42,530 nt of DNA from a virus. This document shows, piece after piece, positions 4,906-37,864 of this stretch. Made by a program: the position numbers and the translations under genes. The notes beneath the pieces are model-generated. The model had not been told where the DNA came from. It was given only the letters and a program-made list of their open reading frames with translations, and did no database searches. The first letter of the stretch is position 1, and each line of letters starts with the position of its first letter. The stretch lies in the IMG/VR virus record IMGVR_UViG_3300045049_000094, positions 1 through 42,530 of that record; one strand, given 5' to 3'.

Positions 4906-6020
4906 AGCGTCACCGTCGAGTCGGGTGCATGATTCTTCGCTTCGATCGTCATCTCATAGCCACCGTCGAAGCTGAGGCGTCGGGTAATGCTGTCTGGAAA
5001 GTAGACTTGATCGAAAGCGGTTCCAGTGCCGCTCAACTGAATGAGTGACGTGGTATCGAGGTCGTTGTCGCCGGGGATCGTCAGGCCCTCGAGCTTCATC
5101 TCGTGCGCGACGATTTGGTTGTACCAGCTCTGCGCACGCTGGAGTGCTTGATCCTTGGTCAGGTTTGGGACCGTCTTCGAGTAGATCTGCGCACCGGCGC
5201 CGACCGTGGCTGATCCGACTTTGATGGTCTTCACGTTCGACGGATACGACACAGTGAAACCCTTAGCGAACTTCTTGTTCCACGAGCGGATTTTGACCTG
5301 AATGCCGCGAGAGACGGTCAGCGCGCGTTGAAATCGCACCGCCTCGAAATTCGCTTTCGGGCCCGCGCCTGTATCAGATACCTGATACACGATCTGATAT
5401 GGCGGCGTCGTCAACGGACTTGGCGCCGGATGGAAGTAGAGCGTTTGACCTCGCACCCATACCTTGAAGCCTTCCAGATCTGCTAAATACGTCAGCAGAT
5501 CCCACTCGGAGCGCTCATCCGCCATGTTGACGTGGTCAATTTCATAAAACTTGCCGACCTTGGTGGTGGTCGCCGTAACCGAAGCGACCAGGCCGTGAGC
5601 CTCGGCCAGTTGCGTCGCGATCTGGCTGGAAGTCTGGTTCGGCCACTTTTGTGTCGTTTTGTCGTCGATGAAGACTCGTGTCAAATCACGGCCATCGACC
5701 TCGATGGTGTTCGTAATCGGATCAACGCTCACATGGTCGACTTGACCGTAGATAAAGCTATCAAGATCGTATGGAGTAAACGACGTAGGGTCGGGAGGAA
5801 ATCCAATAAAAAGCTCGACGTACATGTCTCGCTGTTGCGAAAACCAATCCGCGTCCCGATCCGGAGGCAGCATCGCACCAGCGAACTTGCATCTGAACGT
5901 ATCGGCGGAGTAGTACGCGTTGTTTGTCACCTCCATCTCCATCCAGCCCGCAATGAGCTCGCCATTTAGCTTCACTGCACCGCGCGGTGTTCTCGCACTC
6001 GGAATGAGAAATGACGTCAT
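4902..6020 (-). CDS. Late control gpD-like tail hub protein
   Basis: A 372-residue protein of the P2 gpD / Mu gp44 type, which forms the hub between tail tube and spike. It has the expected beta-rich domains with IYGQVDHVSVDPITNTIEVD, GRDLTRVFIDDKT and a C-terminal QVYFPDSITRRLSFDGGYEM segment. The reading frame is open 39 codons further upstream, but the ATG at 6020-6018 is chosen because it follows the stop of the upstream gene by two bases and the family begins here (MTSFLIPSARTPRG). The stop overlaps gpV by four bases. Confidence 0.85.
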   Translation of the reverse strand: MTSFLIPSARTPRGAVKLNGELIAGWMEMEVTNNAYYSADTFRCKFAGAMLPPDRDADWFSQQRDMYVELFIGFPPDPTSFTPYDLDSFIYGQVDHVSVDPITNTIEVDGRDLTRVFIDDKTTQKWPNQTSSQIATQLAEAHGLVASVTATTTKVGKFYEIDHVNMADERSEWDLLTYLADLEGFKVWVRGQTLYFHPAPSPLTTPPYQIVYQVSDTGAGPKANFEAVRFQRALTVSRGIQVKIRSWNKKFAKGFTVSYPSNVKTIKVGSATVGAGAQIYSKTVPNLTKDQALQRAQSWYNQIVAHEMKLEGLTIPGDNDLDTTSLIQLSGTGTAFDQVYFPDSITRRLSFDGGYEMTIEAKNHAPDSTVTL

Positions 6021-31404: not shown

Positions 31405-31731
31405 TCAGCCAACGCATTTCGCCCTCGCGAGCTTCTCCTTGCCGGTCGTGCCGCCAACGGGAGGCTGTGTGTCGTCATGCGCGGTGTCATCGACCGAACC
31501 GACGGGAGGTTGCGTATCGTCGGATGCTTGAGCTCGGTCAATCAGGTCGGCCAAGAAAAGGTCAGGCCTTTCGAGCTTCACGCTTGCTGGAATGCCGCGC
31601 GTTTTCCAGTTCTGGATTCGCTGAACCCCGCCGGACGCCTTGTCGTATCCGAGCAGCTCAGCGAGCTTCGTAGGGCCGCCCAACTTTTCGATGAGCTTGG
31701 CGTCGGGGTGCGGTTCAGGATGTTTATTCAT
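31405..31731 (-). CDS. Cro-like DNA-binding protein
   Basis: A 108-residue protein divergent from the repressor gene. Residues about 12-50 form a helix-turn-helix (LIEKLGGPTKLAELLGYDKA, VQRIQNWKTRGIPASV) resembling small Cro/YdaS regulators. The C-terminal part is low-complexity with a DDTQPPVG repeat (two copies). The promoter's predicted start falls at about 31732, just before the ATG at 31731-31729, so the mRNA is probably leaderless. It should repress or balance CI at the shared operators. Confidence 0.72.
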   Translation of the reverse strand: MNKHPEPHPDAKLIEKLGGPTKLAELLGYDKASGGVQRIQNWKTRGIPASVKLERPDLFLADLIDRAQASDDTQPPVGSVDDTAHDDTQPPVGGTTGKEKLARAKCVG

Positions 31732-31775
31732 GTGGTGTATTAAACACCACGTTTATCGGCATGTCAAACACCGCG
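31732..31775 (-). promoter_or_regulatory. pR-like promoter with CI/Cro operators
   Basis: Minus strand TTGACA (31767-31762), 17 bases, TTTAAT (31744-31739). Operator-like repeats cover both boxes: GTGGTGT..ACACCAC (31732-31750), TAAACACCACGTTTA (31742-31754 region) and CAAACACCGCGTGT (31766-31778 region). Half-site AAACACC/GGTGTTT is shared with 33289-33330. Confidence 0.75.
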
Positions 31776-31814
31776 TGTAACAACATTTTGTTTACTTATG
31801 GAAACATGCACGGC

Positions 31815-32606
31815 ATGAAAGACCGTCAGATTCATGCCACGGCCGCCCGTCTGCTCGAGGCAGCAAAAATCCTGAAGGGCACCGCCGGCCCTTCGGACCT
31901 AGCTCGTCTGCTCGGGGTCTCGCCCCAAAAAGTGACAAACTGGATGAGCCGCGGTGTCTCGAAAGAAGGGTTGTTGGAGGCGCAGCGACTGATAGGATGC
32001 AGCGCGACCTGGTTACAAACAGGAGAGGGCCAGATGGTCGAGGGCTCCGTTCATAACCAGGCCGAAGCGCAAAGCCCGAAGAGCGAAGAAACGCAGCGTT
32101 TAATCGCCAAATTGCTGCCTGAAGGAAAAGGTAACGTCCTGACGTGGGAGCGGCCGGAGGATCTCGAATTCGACGAGGACAGAGTCTGGATCGACCGCTT
32201 TGACTATCGTTTTTCGGCGGGGTCCGGTTTGATGCAGTGGGAAGTGAGGCAGAAGAAGGCGCTCCCCTTCGATATGAGCTTTTTCAAGGGGCTCGGAGTG
32301 CGGCCACAAGATTGCCGGCTGGCGCAGGTCCATGGCCGAAGCATGGAGCCGTACCTATATCATCGAGACATGATGATGATCTGCACGGCCAACACGCGGA
32401 TCAAAGACGGCCTCGTTTATGCTGTGTACTTCGAGGATGAGCAGCTTGTGAAGCAAATCTTCAAGGAGCCTGGAGGTGGGCTGCGGTTACACTCTTTGAA
32501 CCCGGAATTTCCTGACAGAGTGCTGGTTGGCGACCAGCTCGCGGCCTTGCATGTGGCTGGCGAAGTGATCTATCGGTCAGGGTCTGGACCGGCAGGCGGT
32601 AACTAG
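31815..32606 (+). CDS. CI-type repressor with S24 self-cleavage domain
   Basis: A 263-residue lysogeny repressor. The helix-turn-helix is at about residues 24-47 (GPSDLARLLGVSPQKVTNWM). The S24/LexA-type domain has the nucleophile S176 (GRSMEPYL) and general base K213 (LVKQIF), with a candidate cleavage site A135-G136 (RFSAGSG), so it should be inactivated by RecA after DNA damage. ATG 31815 is chosen for family length; ATG 31806 is possible and has GGAA close by. It diverges from the Cro-like gene and is followed by two small genes and a terminator. Confidence 0.88.
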   Translation: MKDRQIHATAARLLEAAKILKGTAGPSDLARLLGVSPQKVTNWMSRGVSKEGLLEAQRLIGCSATWLQTGEGQMVEGSVHNQAEAQSPKSEETQRLIAKLLPEGKGNVLTWERPEDLEFDEDRVWIDRFDYRFSAGSGLMQWEVRQKKALPFDMSFFKGLGVRPQDCRLAQVHGRSMEPYLYHRDMMMICTANTRIKDGLVYAVYFEDEQLVKQIFKEPGGGLRLHSLNPEFPDRVLVGDQLAALHVAGEVIYRSGSGPAGGN

Positions 32607-32614
32607 GAGCCGTA

Positions 32615-32830
32615 ATGGACGAAGAGACCTCTACCGCGATATTTGCGTTGTGTGTTACGCAACATTTGACCCTCAAATCTGTTTCGAAAATGATGCAGGT
32701 TGTGTCAAAGAACGCATCTGAGCAGGACATCTATGAGATGAGCGAGACGCTCGGCGCGGCCCTCGATGCCTTCGATGATGTCTTGACCCGCACGAAAGCA
32801 GTGATCGACAAGGCAGCCAAGCATGGCTAA
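32615..32830 (+). CDS. Small protein cotranscribed with repressor (rexA position)
   Basis: A 71-residue protein, MDEETSTAIFALCVTQHLTL, then SVSKMMQVVSKNASEQDIYE and FDDVLTRTKAVIDKAAKHG. GGAG lies at good distance before the ATG, eight bases after cI. No family is recognised. Being expressed with the repressor, it is available in the lysogen and might influence host fitness or exclude other phages. Confidence 0.65.
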   Translation: MDEETSTAIFALCVTQHLTLKSVSKMMQVVSKNASEQDIYEMSETLGAALDAFDDVLTRTKAVIDKAAKHG

Positions 32831-33179
32831 CGCAGACTATAGCCTCATGCAGAGATTGGCCGAGCAAGAATCCGTTCTACGCTCGATTCCGGTTGACACT
32901 ACCGGTGGCGGTGGGGATGATGGGGGCATGGAAGCTAGAATCGCCGCCCTCGAACAGGCCAATCTTGAGACTCGCGACCGGCTCGCGAGGATCGAAACTC
33001 GTCTCGACTCCGTGGCAACTAAGGCTGACCTGGTTGGGCTTCATGGTGATATGCAATCTATGCGCGTCGCACTCCACCAGGAGATAAACGCCCAGACTTG
33101 GAAGCTCGTGACGTTCGTCTGCAGCTTCGGTACTGCCCTGGTGGCCGCCACCTATTTCATCGCGAAACACGTCAGCTAG
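32823..33179 (+). CDS. Coiled-coil membrane protein cotranscribed with repressor (rexB position)
   Basis: A 118-residue protein. Residues about 36-80 are a coiled coil (MEARIAALEQANLETRDRLA, RIETRLDSVATKADLVGLHG) and residues about 94-115 a single membrane segment (LVTFVCSFGTALVAATYFIA). It overlaps the preceding gene by eight bases and is followed by a terminator. Similar coiled-coil plus tail-anchor proteins are common in prophages without known function. Its lysogenic expression suggests an immunity or exclusion role, not shown. Confidence 0.68.
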   Translation: MANADYSLMQRLAEQESVLRSIPVDTTGGGGDDGGMEARIAALEQANLETRDRLARIETRLDSVATKADLVGLHGDMQSMRVALHQEINAQTWKLVTFVCSFGTALVAATYFIAKHVS

Positions 33180-33202: not shown

Positions 33203-33227
33203 AAGCCCGCCCCGAGCGGGCTTTTTT
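33203..33227 (+). terminator. Terminator of the repressor operon
   Basis: Stem AAGCCCGC/GCGGGCTT (33203-33210 with 33216-33223), five-base loop, followed by six T residues. It separates cI and its two partners from the rightward promoter. Confidence 0.85.
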
Positions 33228-33288
33228 GCGCCCGCGCGCCAGCCACCTATCACGCGGCCCATCTCATATGAAAAATCAATGTTCATCG

Positions 33289-33330
33289 TTAAACACGGTG
33301 TTTGACACGAGAATAAACATGGTGTTTAAT
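33289..33330 (+). promoter_or_regulatory. pL-like promoter with two operators
   Basis: TTGACA (33302-33307), 17 bases, TTTAAT (33325-33330), the same boxes and spacing as the cro promoter. A perfect operator palindrome AAACAC-G-GTGTTT (33291-33303) overlaps the -35 box and a near copy AAACAT-G-GTGTTT (33315-33327) overlaps the -10. Repression by CI is expected; the start is near 33337, reading into the structured RNA region. Confidence 0.78.
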
Positions 33331-33392
33331 TGATCCCATCGCAGCACCAAACGCGCAACGGCGCACCGGGAAGTCTCCGGGTTCTTTAAACA

Positions 33393-33860
33393 TGATGGCG
33401 GATGAACTGGCTCGAACCATCGGGCCCACCCCCTGGCCTCGTGCGGGTGAAGCAAAAGCACGGGAAATGGCGGCCTGATGAGCTGCTACCGAAAGGCGCC
33501 GAGCGATCGTGGCGCGGTAACGATCGCAACCGTCCTCGAGCCGGAGCTGGCTCGGCCAGGAGTAGCCGGCCGAGGACGTAAAGCAATGTTGAGTGAATGG
33601 CGCTGTGAAGTGCGCGAGCTCGTGGAATGGAGCGCACAAACCAGACGGCCGAGCGTGGATCGCTCGGATGCGAGAAGTCGGCCGAACAAGCATACCGCCT
33701 CCATGCGGGGTCGACAGCCGGTTAGCGATCGGCCACAGCGCCATTCACTGAGCAGTGCTGAAAAGCAGTCTTTAGCGGAGCCATCCTACCGTCGGCGCGG
33801 CGACGTGAAATAGCCCGTACGCATGCAATCACTCCGCGGGTGGCTCCGCCAAAGACTGTT
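33393..33860 (+). ncRNA. Candidate large structured noncoding RNA
   Basis: This stretch downstream of the pL-like promoter has no convincing gene but many stable helices: 33438-33444/33458-33464; GCGATCGT/ACGATCGC (33503-33510/33520-33527); a 13-bp stem with a bulged A (33531-33544/33566-33578) closed by CTGGC-TCG-GCCAG; a perfect 16-bp stem AGTGAATGGCGCTGTG (33592-33607/33734-33749) enclosing a multibranch set with GTGCGC/GCGCAC, CGGCCGA/TCGGCCG, CCGC/GCGG and GCCG/CGGC; and a 20-bp stem (33766-33786/33838-33858, one mismatch and one G-U) holding CGTCG/CGACG. Function unknown. Confidence 0.65.
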
Positions 33861-33907
33861 AGTAGTCCTTTTGAAATTCTAGATCGGGAAAGCGACAGAG
33901 GGCCGGT

Positions 33908-34060
33908 ATGAGGGTGTTTGAGCCGTCGGATGACTGGCGCCTACGCGGTTTGGACGACGCACTGGAGCCGAGTGATCCGCTCACCGAAGAAGAGGAACGA
34001 GAGCTGTACGAGCAGGAGCGTGAACAACGCGCCGATTGGCGCCGAAGGGGATCGCCGTGA
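33908..34060 (+). CDS. Small acidic phage protein
   Basis: A 50-residue protein, MRVFEPSDDWRLRGLDDALE then PSDPLTEEEERELYEQEREQ, ending WRRRGSP. GAGGG is before the ATG. It is the first protein gene after the structured RNA region, and its stop overlaps the next GTG. Strongly charged, helical C-terminus; unknown function. Confidence 0.65.
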   Translation: MRVFEPSDDWRLRGLDDALEPSDPLTEEEERELYEQEREQRADWRRRGSP

Positions 34061-35152: not shown

Positions 35153-36228
35153 GCACGGCACTGACGACGCGCAACGAATTCGGCGCGCAGCAGCAGACGA
35201 TGGCCGTCGTGGAGACTGCATCGACCGCTATCGCCGCGCAATCAAAAGCCATGGTGGAAGCTCGCTATGTTATGGCGATGCAGCGTCCGCGAAACTGGGA
35301 TCAGGTGCGGCAAGACCTGATTCTGGAGTGCCGGCGTCCCGCCTTCGCCAACAACAAGAGCGCCTACTACCGCAAGCCGATCGGCAACGGGGTAGAGGGC
35401 CTTGGAATTCGGTTCGTCGAAGTCGCACTGCGCTGCATGAAGAACGTGTTGGTCGAAACGACCATGATCTTCGAGGACGACTCGAAAGAAGTGCATCGCG
35501 TCAGCGTCACCGACCTCGAATCGAACTTGACTTATCCGCTGGACGTGCGCGTCTCCAAAACGGTGGAGCGCTCGAAGCCGATGGACGACGGCTCGTACAT
35601 TTCGATGCGCATGAACAGCTACAAGAAGCCGGTCTATACGGTGCCGGCGAACGATGACGATCTGCTCAACAAGCGGGCCGCGCAGATCTCGAAGGCTATC
35701 CGGACGCTCGGCTTGCGCATCATCCCGGGCGACCTGCAGGACGAGGCCGAAGCAATCATCAAGGCAGTCCGGCTCGACGAGGCCGCGAGCGACCCCGCAG
35801 CAGAACGCAAGCGCATCGCTGACGCCTTCGCAGAGATCGGCGTGAAAGCCGCCGATCTGACCGCTTACCTGGGCCACTCCCTCGATACCTGCTCTCCGCC
35901 CGAGTTGGTTGACCTGCGCGGCATCTATGGCGCAATCAAGGATGGCGAAGCCACCTGGAAATCGGTCATGGAGAACAAGGCTGAGCAGCAGGGCGGCGGC
36001 GATCCTGCTGGCGGTGCGCCGGCCGTCAATGGCGGGGCTACGGTCACGGGTAAGGTCGTGCCCGTTTGCTCCGAAGAGGAATTCAAGAAAAAGTCCGCCG
36101 AATGGCGCAAGACGATTGTCGACAAGAAGAAGTCAGTCGCGGAGCTGACCGCGATGATCGAGACACGGACGCTTCTCACCGAAGAGCAGAAGATGCAGAT
36201 CGACGCCTGGAGCCACGAAAATGACTGA
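35149..36228 (+). CDS. Probable single-strand annealing protein
   Basis: A 359-residue protein just before a YqaJ-type exonuclease, the normal place of a RecT/Red-beta/Erf-type annealing protein. The conserved-looking core is residues about 25-215 (VMAMQRPRNWDQVRQDLILE, YYRKPIGNGVEGLGIRFVEV, AAQISKAIRTLGLRIIPGDL). The C-terminal part is helical and alanine/lysine rich with a GGG linker, perhaps for binding host SSB or the nuclease. I do not recognise a classical RecT motif, so the class is unclear. It overlaps the nuclease gene by eight bases. Confidence 0.65.
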   Translation: MSTALTTRNEFGAQQQTMAVVETASTAIAAQSKAMVEARYVMAMQRPRNWDQVRQDLILECRRPAFANNKSAYYRKPIGNGVEGLGIRFVEVALRCMKNVLVETTMIFEDDSKEVHRVSVTDLESNLTYPLDVRVSKTVERSKPMDDGSYISMRMNSYKKPVYTVPANDDDLLNKRAAQISKAIRTLGLRIIPGDLQDEAEAIIKAVRLDEAASDPAAERKRIADAFAEIGVKAADLTAYLGHSLDTCSPPELVDLRGIYGAIKDGEATWKSVMENKAEQQGGGDPAGGAPAVNGGATVTGKVVPVCSEEEFKKKSAEWRKTIVDKKKSVAELTAMIETRTLLTEEQKMQIDAWSHEND

Positions 36229-37864
36229 ACGCATCATTCACAACCTGGTTCAGGGCACGCCGGAATGGGAGCAGTTTCGTTTTCAGCACTTCGGTGCGAG
36301 CGAAGCCGCAGCCATGCTCGGCCTCTCGCCCAAGGTGCGGCGCACGGAGCTTTTGCACATGAAGCATACCGGCACCGCGCGAGAGTTCAGCGAGTGGGTG
36401 CAGAGGAACATCCTCGACTACGGCCACGAAGTCGAGGCACTGGCAAGGCCGCTAGTCGAGGTCCTCATCGGAGCGGACCTTTACCCCGTTACTTGCTCGC
36501 TCGGTCGCCTGTCGGCGTCGTGCGACGGGCTCACGATGTCGGAAGACATCGCATTCGAGCATAAGCAGTACAACGCAGCGCTGTTTGATGCTCTCTCAAA
36601 CGGCGTGTTGCCGGAAGAGCATATGCCGCAGGCGCAGCAGATCATGCTGGTAACAGGAGCGTCGCGCGTTGTGTTCACGTGCTCGGACGGAACGCCTGAT
36701 CGGCTCGTGACCCTGGACGTGCTGCCAGACGAAACATGGTTCGAGCGCCTGCGCACTGGCTGGGCCCAGTTCGAGAAGGATCTCGCCGACTACCGGCCAC
36801 AGGAAGTCGTGGAGACGCCGAAGCCCGAGGCCATCATCGCGCTGCCGGCGCTGGCGGTGCAGATCCGCGGCGAAGTGATCACCAGCAATCTGCCGGCATT
36901 CAGGTCGGCGGCGGAGCAGTTCATCGCGAGTATCAAGACCGACCTGAAGACCGATGAGGATTTTGTCCAGGCGGCCGCGACGGTCAGTTTCTGCGATGAC
37001 GCGGAAAAGAGGTTGGCCGCCGCGCTCGACGGCGCCATCGCGCAGATGAGCACGGTCGATGAAGTGAAGCGCACTGTCGAGCACTTGATCGAACAGTTCC
37101 GCAGCAAGCGTCTTGAGCTCGACAAACTGGTCGAGAGCCGCAAGAAGAAGATCAAGGAAGATGCGGTCGCCGAGCGGCGCCAGAAGTACGCCGATCACGT
37201 CGAGGCGTTGAACAACGCGCTGGGTGATGTGAGCATTGCGGTGGCCGCGCCCGACTTTGCGGGCGCCATCAAAGGCTTGAAGACGATCGCCAGCCTGAAC
37301 GACAAGCTGGATACGGCGCTTGCCAACGGGAAGATTTCCGCCGACGCGGCCGCGCGGGACCTGCGCGCGAAGCTCGACTGGTATCAGGAGCACGCCATCG
37401 GACATGCATTCCTGTTCCGCGATCTGCAGACGCTGATCCAGAAACCGGCCGAGGACTTCCAGCTGGCAGTCACTACCCGCATCGAGCTGCACAAGCAGGA
37501 AGAAGCGAAGAAGACCGCGGCCCCTGCAGCCGTGTCCGAATCATCGGCTGTCGCGGCGACGTCGGCATCCGTACAGCCCTCGCTCGGATTCGTCCATAAC
37601 CAAGTCGCGCCCTGGATCGGATCCGTGCGAGTCGAACCGACTGGCGCACCGACTTTGCGCCTTGGGCAGATCAACGAACGGCTCGCGCCGATCACGCTGA
37701 CCGCCGACGGCCTTGCTGCTCTCGGCTTTCCGCACGCAGCAACCGACAAGAACGCGAAGCTGTATCACGAAGCGTCGTTCGTCGACATGTGCGCAGCGCT
37801 GATTCGGCACGTCCAGGCAGCGGTCGGCAACTTGCAGACAACCTCGCTGGAGCGCGCAGCGTAA
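36221..37864 (+). CDS. YqaJ-type exonuclease with long C-terminal extension
   Basis: A 547-residue protein. Residues 1-205 are a YqaJ/lambda-exonuclease fold: TPEWEQFRFQHFGASEAAAM, then catalytic D (SASCDGL) and the E-x-K motif in AFEHKQYN. It should chew 5' ends and hand 3' tails to the annealing protein. Residues about 225-430 are long helices resembling DUF1351-type phage proteins, and a last domain of about 80 residues (APITLTADGLAALGFPHAAT) is separate. The extension more than doubles the usual nuclease length. Confidence 0.82.
   Translation: MTERIIHNLVQGTPEWEQFRFQHFGASEAAAMLGLSPKVRRTELLHMKHTGTAREFSEWVQRNILDYGHEVEALARPLVEVLIGADLYPVTCSLGRLSASCDGLTMSEDIAFEHKQYNAALFDALSNGVLPEEHMPQAQQIMLVTGASRVVFTCSDGTPDRLVTLDVLPDETWFERLRTGWAQFEKDLADYRPQEVVETPKPEAIIALPALAVQIRGEVITSNLPAFRSAAEQFIASIKTDLKTDEDFVQAAATVSFCDDAEKRLAAALDGAIAQMSTVDEVKRTVEHLIEQFRSKRLELDKLVESRKKKIKEDAVAERRQKYADHVEALNNALGDVSIAVAAPDFAGAIKGLKTIASLNDKLDTALANGKISADAAARDLRAKLDWYQEHAIGHAFLFRDLQTLIQKPAEDFQLAVTTRIELHKQEEAKKTAAPAAVSESSAVAATSASVQPSLGFVHNQVAPWIGSVRVEPTGAPTLRLGQINERLAPITLTADGLAALGFPHAATDKNAKLYHEASFVDMCAALIRHVQAAVGNLQTTSLERAA

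Follow-up and report, generated by a model that had tools for sequence, protein, structure and literature searches.

A modular, boxA-bearing structured RNA leader at the early-left promoter of Burkholderia-type temperate phages as a candidate antitermination element

Positions 33338-33860 of record IMGVR_UViG_3300045049_000094, a temperate phage or prophage record of Burkholderia type, are an untranslated leader of structured RNA. The whole 42,530-nt record was analysed and is called the window, and coordinates are window positions. The original prediction had described one large RNA; instead, the leader consists of module A (33366-33578), a variable domain (33588-33755) and module B (33764-33860). 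Arguing by analogy with known systems, we consider it probable (roughly a two-in-three chance) that module A acts in cis as an antitermination RNA that would work through host NusB-S10 and boxA, replacing lambda N/nutL or HK022 putL. That the early-left operon is antiterminated in cis is suggested by the position, direction and single copy of module A, by the repressor and RecE/RecT context and by the conserved boxA.

The early-left locus and its noncoding leader

The window encodes a CI-like repressor with an S24 peptidase domain (31761-32606, + strand; Pfam Peptidase_S24, 7.8e-17; PHROG 4 transcriptional repressor, 1.9e-29) and, divergent from it on the pR side, a Cro-like DNA-binding protein (31405-31731, - strand; PHROG 8008 DNA binding protein, E 1.2e-19). 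Two small ORFs lie between the repressor and pL (32615-33179) on the strand of the repressor gene, and the second encodes a C-terminal membrane segment; given their lambda rexA/rexB position, they are possibly exclusion genes. A terminator-like repeat (~33203-33229) precedes the pL-like promoter. This promoter (33290-33330, + strand) is predicted from TTGACA at 33302-33307 and TTTAAT at 33325-33330, separated by a 17-nt spacer, and these elements place the expected RNA start at ~33338. Two operators, TAAACAYGGTGTTTR, at 33290-33304 and 33314-33328 overlap it, and pR matches it in operator type and promoter shape. With the S24/CI repressor adjoining, these features fit the earlier claim of a repressor-controlled pL-like promoter. 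Both the early-left operator and the promoter are retained in homologue L012.

The first probable gene 3' of the leader (33908-34060, + strand) encodes 50 aa and belongs to PHROG 23884, of unknown function. It is ~520 nt from boxA, and the nearest gene varies among phages. Small early genes follow and, further into the early operon, a RecE-like nuclease (36221-37864, + strand; PHROG-based). The locus layout is thus that of lambda pL, with ~570 nt of untranslated RNA in place of N. Neither a promoter nor a terminator was found between the leader and the downstream operon. A terminator scan 3' of the leader gave candidates no more numerous than in shuffles, and thus revealed no strong intrinsic terminator that antitermination would have to overcome.

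The fold of 33340-33870 has an energy of -244.1 kcal/mol compared with -213.2 +/- 6.6 in dinucleotide shuffles (z = -4.69; 0 of 100 shuffles as stable). A chain of strong helices had been claimed for this region, and all of them were located where they had been placed. These are a perfect 16-bp stem (33592-33607/33734-33749), which is an inverted repeat of AGTGAATGGCGCTGTG, a bulged stem with a capped hairpin (33531-33578), an 8-bp hairpin (33502/33503-33527) and a 3' stem (33764-33786 with 33838-33860). The start proposed for the RNA, 33393, was too late, because it left out a 5' hairpin and boxA at 33366-33390.

The original prediction also held that the region has no plausible gene, and we agree. 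The sole open frame, 33478-33813, is interrupted by an in-frame TAG in L012, the closest homologue (~95% identical there), and by stops in L001, L002, L006 and L010. Substitutions in this frame are distributed 2/5/6 over the codon positions, a third-position bias too small for coding. Hypothetical proteins annotated over the RNA leader in phages Magia (L256; 2919-3328, minus strand) and Bcep176 (L001; 3983-4146) are probably not genes. In Bcep176, gp28 and gp29 are tiny hypothetical CDS annotated across module A.

Structure, conservation and occurrence of the leader modules

Module A is ~210 nt long and comprises, from 5' to 3', hairpin H0, boxA, GATRAA, P1, an H-type pseudoknot, P4, P5, P6 and P8. 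H0 (33366-33380, + strand; CCGG-GAAGTCT-CCGG) abuts boxA; in relatives its sequence differs and the hairpin is retained. The boxA, GTTCTTTAAA (33381-33390, + strand), is ~43 nt from the expected RNA start and matches 10 of 11 positions of the published consensus for functional gamma-proteobacterial boxA, GYTCTTTAANA (PMC5725501). It is the sole exact GYTCTYTAAM in the window. Here it reads GTTCTTTAAAC, with the last consensus base mismatched; several relatives have the full consensus (for example L060, L061 and L136), and in several T7 is changed to C. All 28 distinct 5' ends have G2, C5 and A9. The GATGAA motif lies at 33401-33406 (+ strand); in most relatives its distance from the start of boxA is 20-21 nt, and GATR has this offset in 24 of 32. 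As a comparison, the host rRNA leader boxA, examined in L051-L056, is TGCTCTTTAAAAAT with GATAAG at offset 22. In a Burkholderiaceae genome that carries module A, the rRNA leader has TGCTCTTTAAAAATTAACAGCCGATAAG after a hairpin-like sequence soon past the promoter. Set side by side, module A and host rrn leaders thus have in common a hairpin followed by boxA near the transcript start.

Downstream of this, covariation supports both the P1 hairpin (33409-33426, + strand; GGCTCGA/TCGGGCC) and the pseudoknot (33427-33464, + strand), which is formed by S1 (33427-33431/33445-33449) and S2 (33438-33444/33458-33464) and has an A-rich loop at 33450-33457 (family form AAnGYAAAA). The P4 hairpin (33468-33488, + strand) is nearly invariant in sequence and its pairing is predicted. 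P5, CCGAAAGG, and P6 (33503-33509/33521-33527) together occupy 33489-33527 on the + strand. P6 is supported by covariation, and its loop, TGGCGNGGTAA, is conserved among relatives. A loop pairing, P7, is proposed between 33497-33500 and GGCG of the P6 loop; its pairs are invariant. The terminal bulged stem P8, CGTCCTCG...CGAGGACG (33531-33578, + strand), has several two-sided changes.

Two checks had been proposed for the original prediction, a covariation test on aligned homologues and an Rfam search. The first supported module A. In a 12-sequence alignment 95.5% of pair cells were standard, and 12 pairs had two-sided changes compared with 5.5 in shuffles and 0-4 in slid controls. Among 15 distinct members, pseudoknot S1 was 100% paired with 12 two-sided cells (2.5 in shuffles) and S2 had 21 (5.6 in shuffles), while 18 distinct P6 stems had 36 (10.5 in shuffles); both of these alignments were hand-anchored on conserved motifs, so that their shuffle comparisons are a guide and not a probability. 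Individual pseudoknots were not unusual relative to shuffles of GC-rich sequence, and what supports the pseudoknot is compensatory change together with a topology that stays constant from member to member. The Rfam search (4227 families) gave no match in the window at the gathering threshold, leaving both modules unmatched, and at E up to 5 the leader had only weak unrelated matches near the upstream terminator. Neither RNA was found described in the open-access literature.

Module B (33764-33860, + strand) is a ~100-nt stem-junction RNA. Its outer stem (33764-33786/33838-33860) encloses a hairpin (33790-33805, + strand; CGTCG-GCGCGG-CGACG) and the conserved sequence AAATAGCCCGTA (33808-33819, + strand). 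Across the family, an outer stem of 9 to ~24 bp surrounds the hairpin GNCG-KCGCGG-CGNC, which is followed by AAATAGCCCGTA. RNAalifold gave two-sided changes at 18 of 25 pairs, and the hairpin had 23 two-sided cells compared with 7 in shuffles. A GCGG/CCGT pairing is possible and is invariant. The outer stems contain 24 G-T and 5 A-C pairs, an excess that favours the + strand as the module B RNA. A Pistol-like ribozyme, prompted by AAAUAG after the hairpin, was rejected because the layout differs and there is no Rfam match.

Between the two modules, domain D (33588-33755, + strand) is closed by the perfect 16-bp stem. Its interior (33590-33735) folds no better than chance (z = -0.36), and other phages have different stems at this position. 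A third recurring stem module, CGACTGCyCTGATCGAAT.GCATT...GTGCCATTC...GAGCGCAGTC, lies 3' of module A plus D or of module B; it is present in L003, L007, L011, L212, L225, L227, L247 and L249, and in L001 after a second module B. An alternative leader core, GTGCGCCGGGACC...GAGCAACCGGCCGGC..., stands before module B in L249, L255 and L001 (~5150-5225), and in L249 and L255 it is preceded by a boxA-like GATCTTTAAG.

Pattern scans of viral contigs and genomes together with model searches placed module A at ~30 phage loci. It occurs once per phage in 23 of 23 records, and a second copy sought on the pR side was not found. Most relatives also have it after an early promoter in the same layout. CI-type repressors are just 5' of it in many loci (15 S24 repressors among 57 upstream ORFs in the surveyed loci). 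Among named phages, Bcep176, Magia, BgManors32 and Shewanella phage QDWS have module A or a leader akin to it; the last three have a related leader with boxA directly past the promoter. The gene order in Magia and QDWS is repressor, leader, early genes, RecT. RecE/RecT-type genes are 3' of the leader in the window and in named phages, and the leader runs in the same direction as the early operon both in the window and in three annotated phages. The leader had no match in the plasmid collection. Several candidates were discarded as chance matches: all except L029 of the 12 matches in a pattern scan of the genome collection, the weak model matches L043, L044 and L049 in genomes (judged from their alignments) and, among the matches listed, most of those from a loose P6-loop scan.

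Modules A and B are separable and recur in differing orders and combinations. By BLAST, 33380-33590 and 33764-33860 match Burkholderia phage Bcep176 separately, and B precedes A both there and in L046. Module A itself is divisible, since L050 retains boxA, P1 and the pseudoknot with a different 3' part, and Magia, BgManors32, QDWS and L212 retain boxA, the P6 loop and P8 with a different middle. Module B was found in ~40 distinct phage sequences, in 25 of 300 sampled Burkholderiaceae genomes and also in unrelated metagenomic phages; L033-L036 and L038-L041, from early scans, were chance matches. In some phages it occupies module A's place, right after an operator-bearing early promoter (L016, L037, L214, L235, L236 and L238, among others); searches of these records gave no confident match to module A. 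L013 and L014 have identical module B copies in quite different flanks, which suggests recent transfer of the element between phages. In five unrelated metagenomic phages (L017, L018, L020, L248 and L251) a strong terminator is followed by module B and then by another structured stretch, which in L017 and L018 has the form TCGGAAGTGACGCTCCGGCATG ... CCTCACTAAGGGGTTTTTTT. This stretch resembles an independent noncoding RNA that has a promoter and a terminator of its own.

A proposed role in antitermination and its alternatives

In E. coli, boxA alone recruits an rRNA-type complex and is its key element (PMC10250234, PMC4807359). We propose that when the CI repressor leaves pL, polymerase would transcribe H0 and then boxA, ~43 nt from the start. 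The boxA would bind host NusB-S10 and load an rRNA-type complex with NusA, NusG and probably SuhB and S4. The pseudoknotted body may stabilise this complex by docking on polymerase or Nus factors, a role that N on boxB has in lambda, and would thus supply what N/boxB or the rRNA context gives elsewhere. Polymerase could then read through the early operon as well as the ~570 nt of untranslated leader, ignoring Rho or intrinsic terminators. Module B, which is also found alone at early promoters, may be a second antitermination element; its lack of boxA brings it nearer to HK022 put.

Several observations count against antitermination. Module A has a single copy and no pR counterpart, unlike nutL/nutR or putL/putR, and downstream intrinsic terminator candidates are at shuffle level. 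The boxA in the window lacks the last consensus base and T7 is C in several relatives; moreover, boxA may repress, as in E. coli suhB, where it promotes Rho termination (PMC5725501). The order B before A in Bcep176 and L046 was also counted against this reading.

The original prediction placed an HK022 put-like RNA where lambda has N. The conservation with compensatory changes, the adjoining CI repressor and the downstream RecE operon are in line with this; however, the functional unit begins upstream with boxA, so that its likeness to rRNA/nut antitermination is as great as to put. A purely put-type leader, whose folded body binds polymerase directly and whose boxA is accessory or vestigial, is an alternative to weigh. 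In HK022 this position is taken by putL (~70 nt, two stems), which works without a phage protein (PMC9378689), and module B holds the early-promoter place in several phages without any boxA. By contrast, few parts of module A are as well conserved as boxA and the GATR spacing, and boxA persists where the middle of the RNA has been replaced (Magia, BgManors32, QDWS, L212). We regard such a leader as unlikely. Nor do we favour another kind of regulatory leader, which would attenuate or delay the early operon, using boxA in the manner of the suhB leader, or would act in RNase III processing, stability or translation; we judge it improbable. RNase III might cut the 16-bp and ~20-bp stems, the untranslated stretch before the first gene is long and boxA can repress via Rho (PMC5725501). 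Yet the nearest gene starts ~520 nt after boxA and differs between phages, and the pseudoknot and P6 loop are conserved far beyond the needs of a simple cleavage stem.

A trans-acting or structural noncoding RNA (an sRNA, a Nus-factor decoy or sponge, or a packaging or scaffold RNA) seems very unlikely. The RNA is large and ornate and is joined with other structured modules in variable order, and a boxA decoy could titrate Nus factors away from rRNA. Against this, there is no internal terminator ahead of the operon, the RNA has the direction of the early operon in the window and in the three annotated phages, and it is present once per phage. The protein scaffold or trans-acting RNA raised in the original prediction is unsupported, with no promoter or terminator between the RNA and the operon. 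That the region is coding, or folds by chance through its GC content, is hardly credible. The frame 33478-33813 is open in the window, but it is broken in L012 and absent from the other homologues checked, and the strong covariation in both modules argues against chance folding; together, the in-frame stops and compensatory changes refute this explanation.

Cis antitermination by module A is accordingly the reading we prefer among these. A broader idea, which we hold tentatively and with slightly more doubt than belief, is that Burkholderiaceae temperate phages, and some unrelated metagenomic phages through module B, carry structured RNAs at the N/put position as a modular kit. Module A would capture the host ribosomal antitermination complex without a phage protein and the boxA-free module B would act directly, which would make this a new class of RNA-directed processive antitermination.

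Comparison with known systems

The main precedent for RNA-only antitermination in phages is HK022 put, which established that RNA can stand in for N (PMC9378689). If our reading is true, module A would be a second, larger and apparently commoner RNA-only solution that borrows a ribosomal RNA signal. It would make testable what replaces N or the S4/SuhB context in building a robust antitermination complex on boxA alone. The two modules also add RNA families that Rfam lacks, and they account for an empty or misannotated stretch beside the repressor in several sequenced phages.

Like HK022 put, module A is just 3' of an early promoter, has no evident phage protein and would be expected to act in cis on polymerase. 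HK022 put is ~70 nt with two stem-loops and occurs as two copies per phage (putL and putR), and the paper on its structure makes no mention of boxA (PMC9378689); by contrast, module A is ~210 nt, pseudoknotted, boxA-bearing and present once per phage (23 of 23). With lambda nutL/N it shares a place after pL, a boxA and a repressor-controlled early operon with recombination genes. It differs in having a hairpin 5' of boxA and a large RNA body instead of boxB, and no N-like gene was recognised beside the leader, where the first gene is the 50-aa member of PHROG 23884. The rrn leader (boxB-boxA-boxC), for which the Burkholderiaceae host leader was compared directly, likewise has a hairpin, boxA and GATRA at near-equal spacing soon after the start. 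Module A, however, continues with a pseudoknot and P6 domain rather than boxC and the 16S leader helix, and it drives phage genes. The suhB leader also has a boxA inside a non-ribosomal 5' leader (PMC5725501). That boxA is near the gene start and represses, whereas here boxA is ~520 nt from the first gene and a conserved fold follows it. GOLLD and ROOL are large structured noncoding RNAs that can be phage-linked. The RNA described here, by contrast, has no Rfam match at gathering score, is much smaller and is a leader, not a free RNA.
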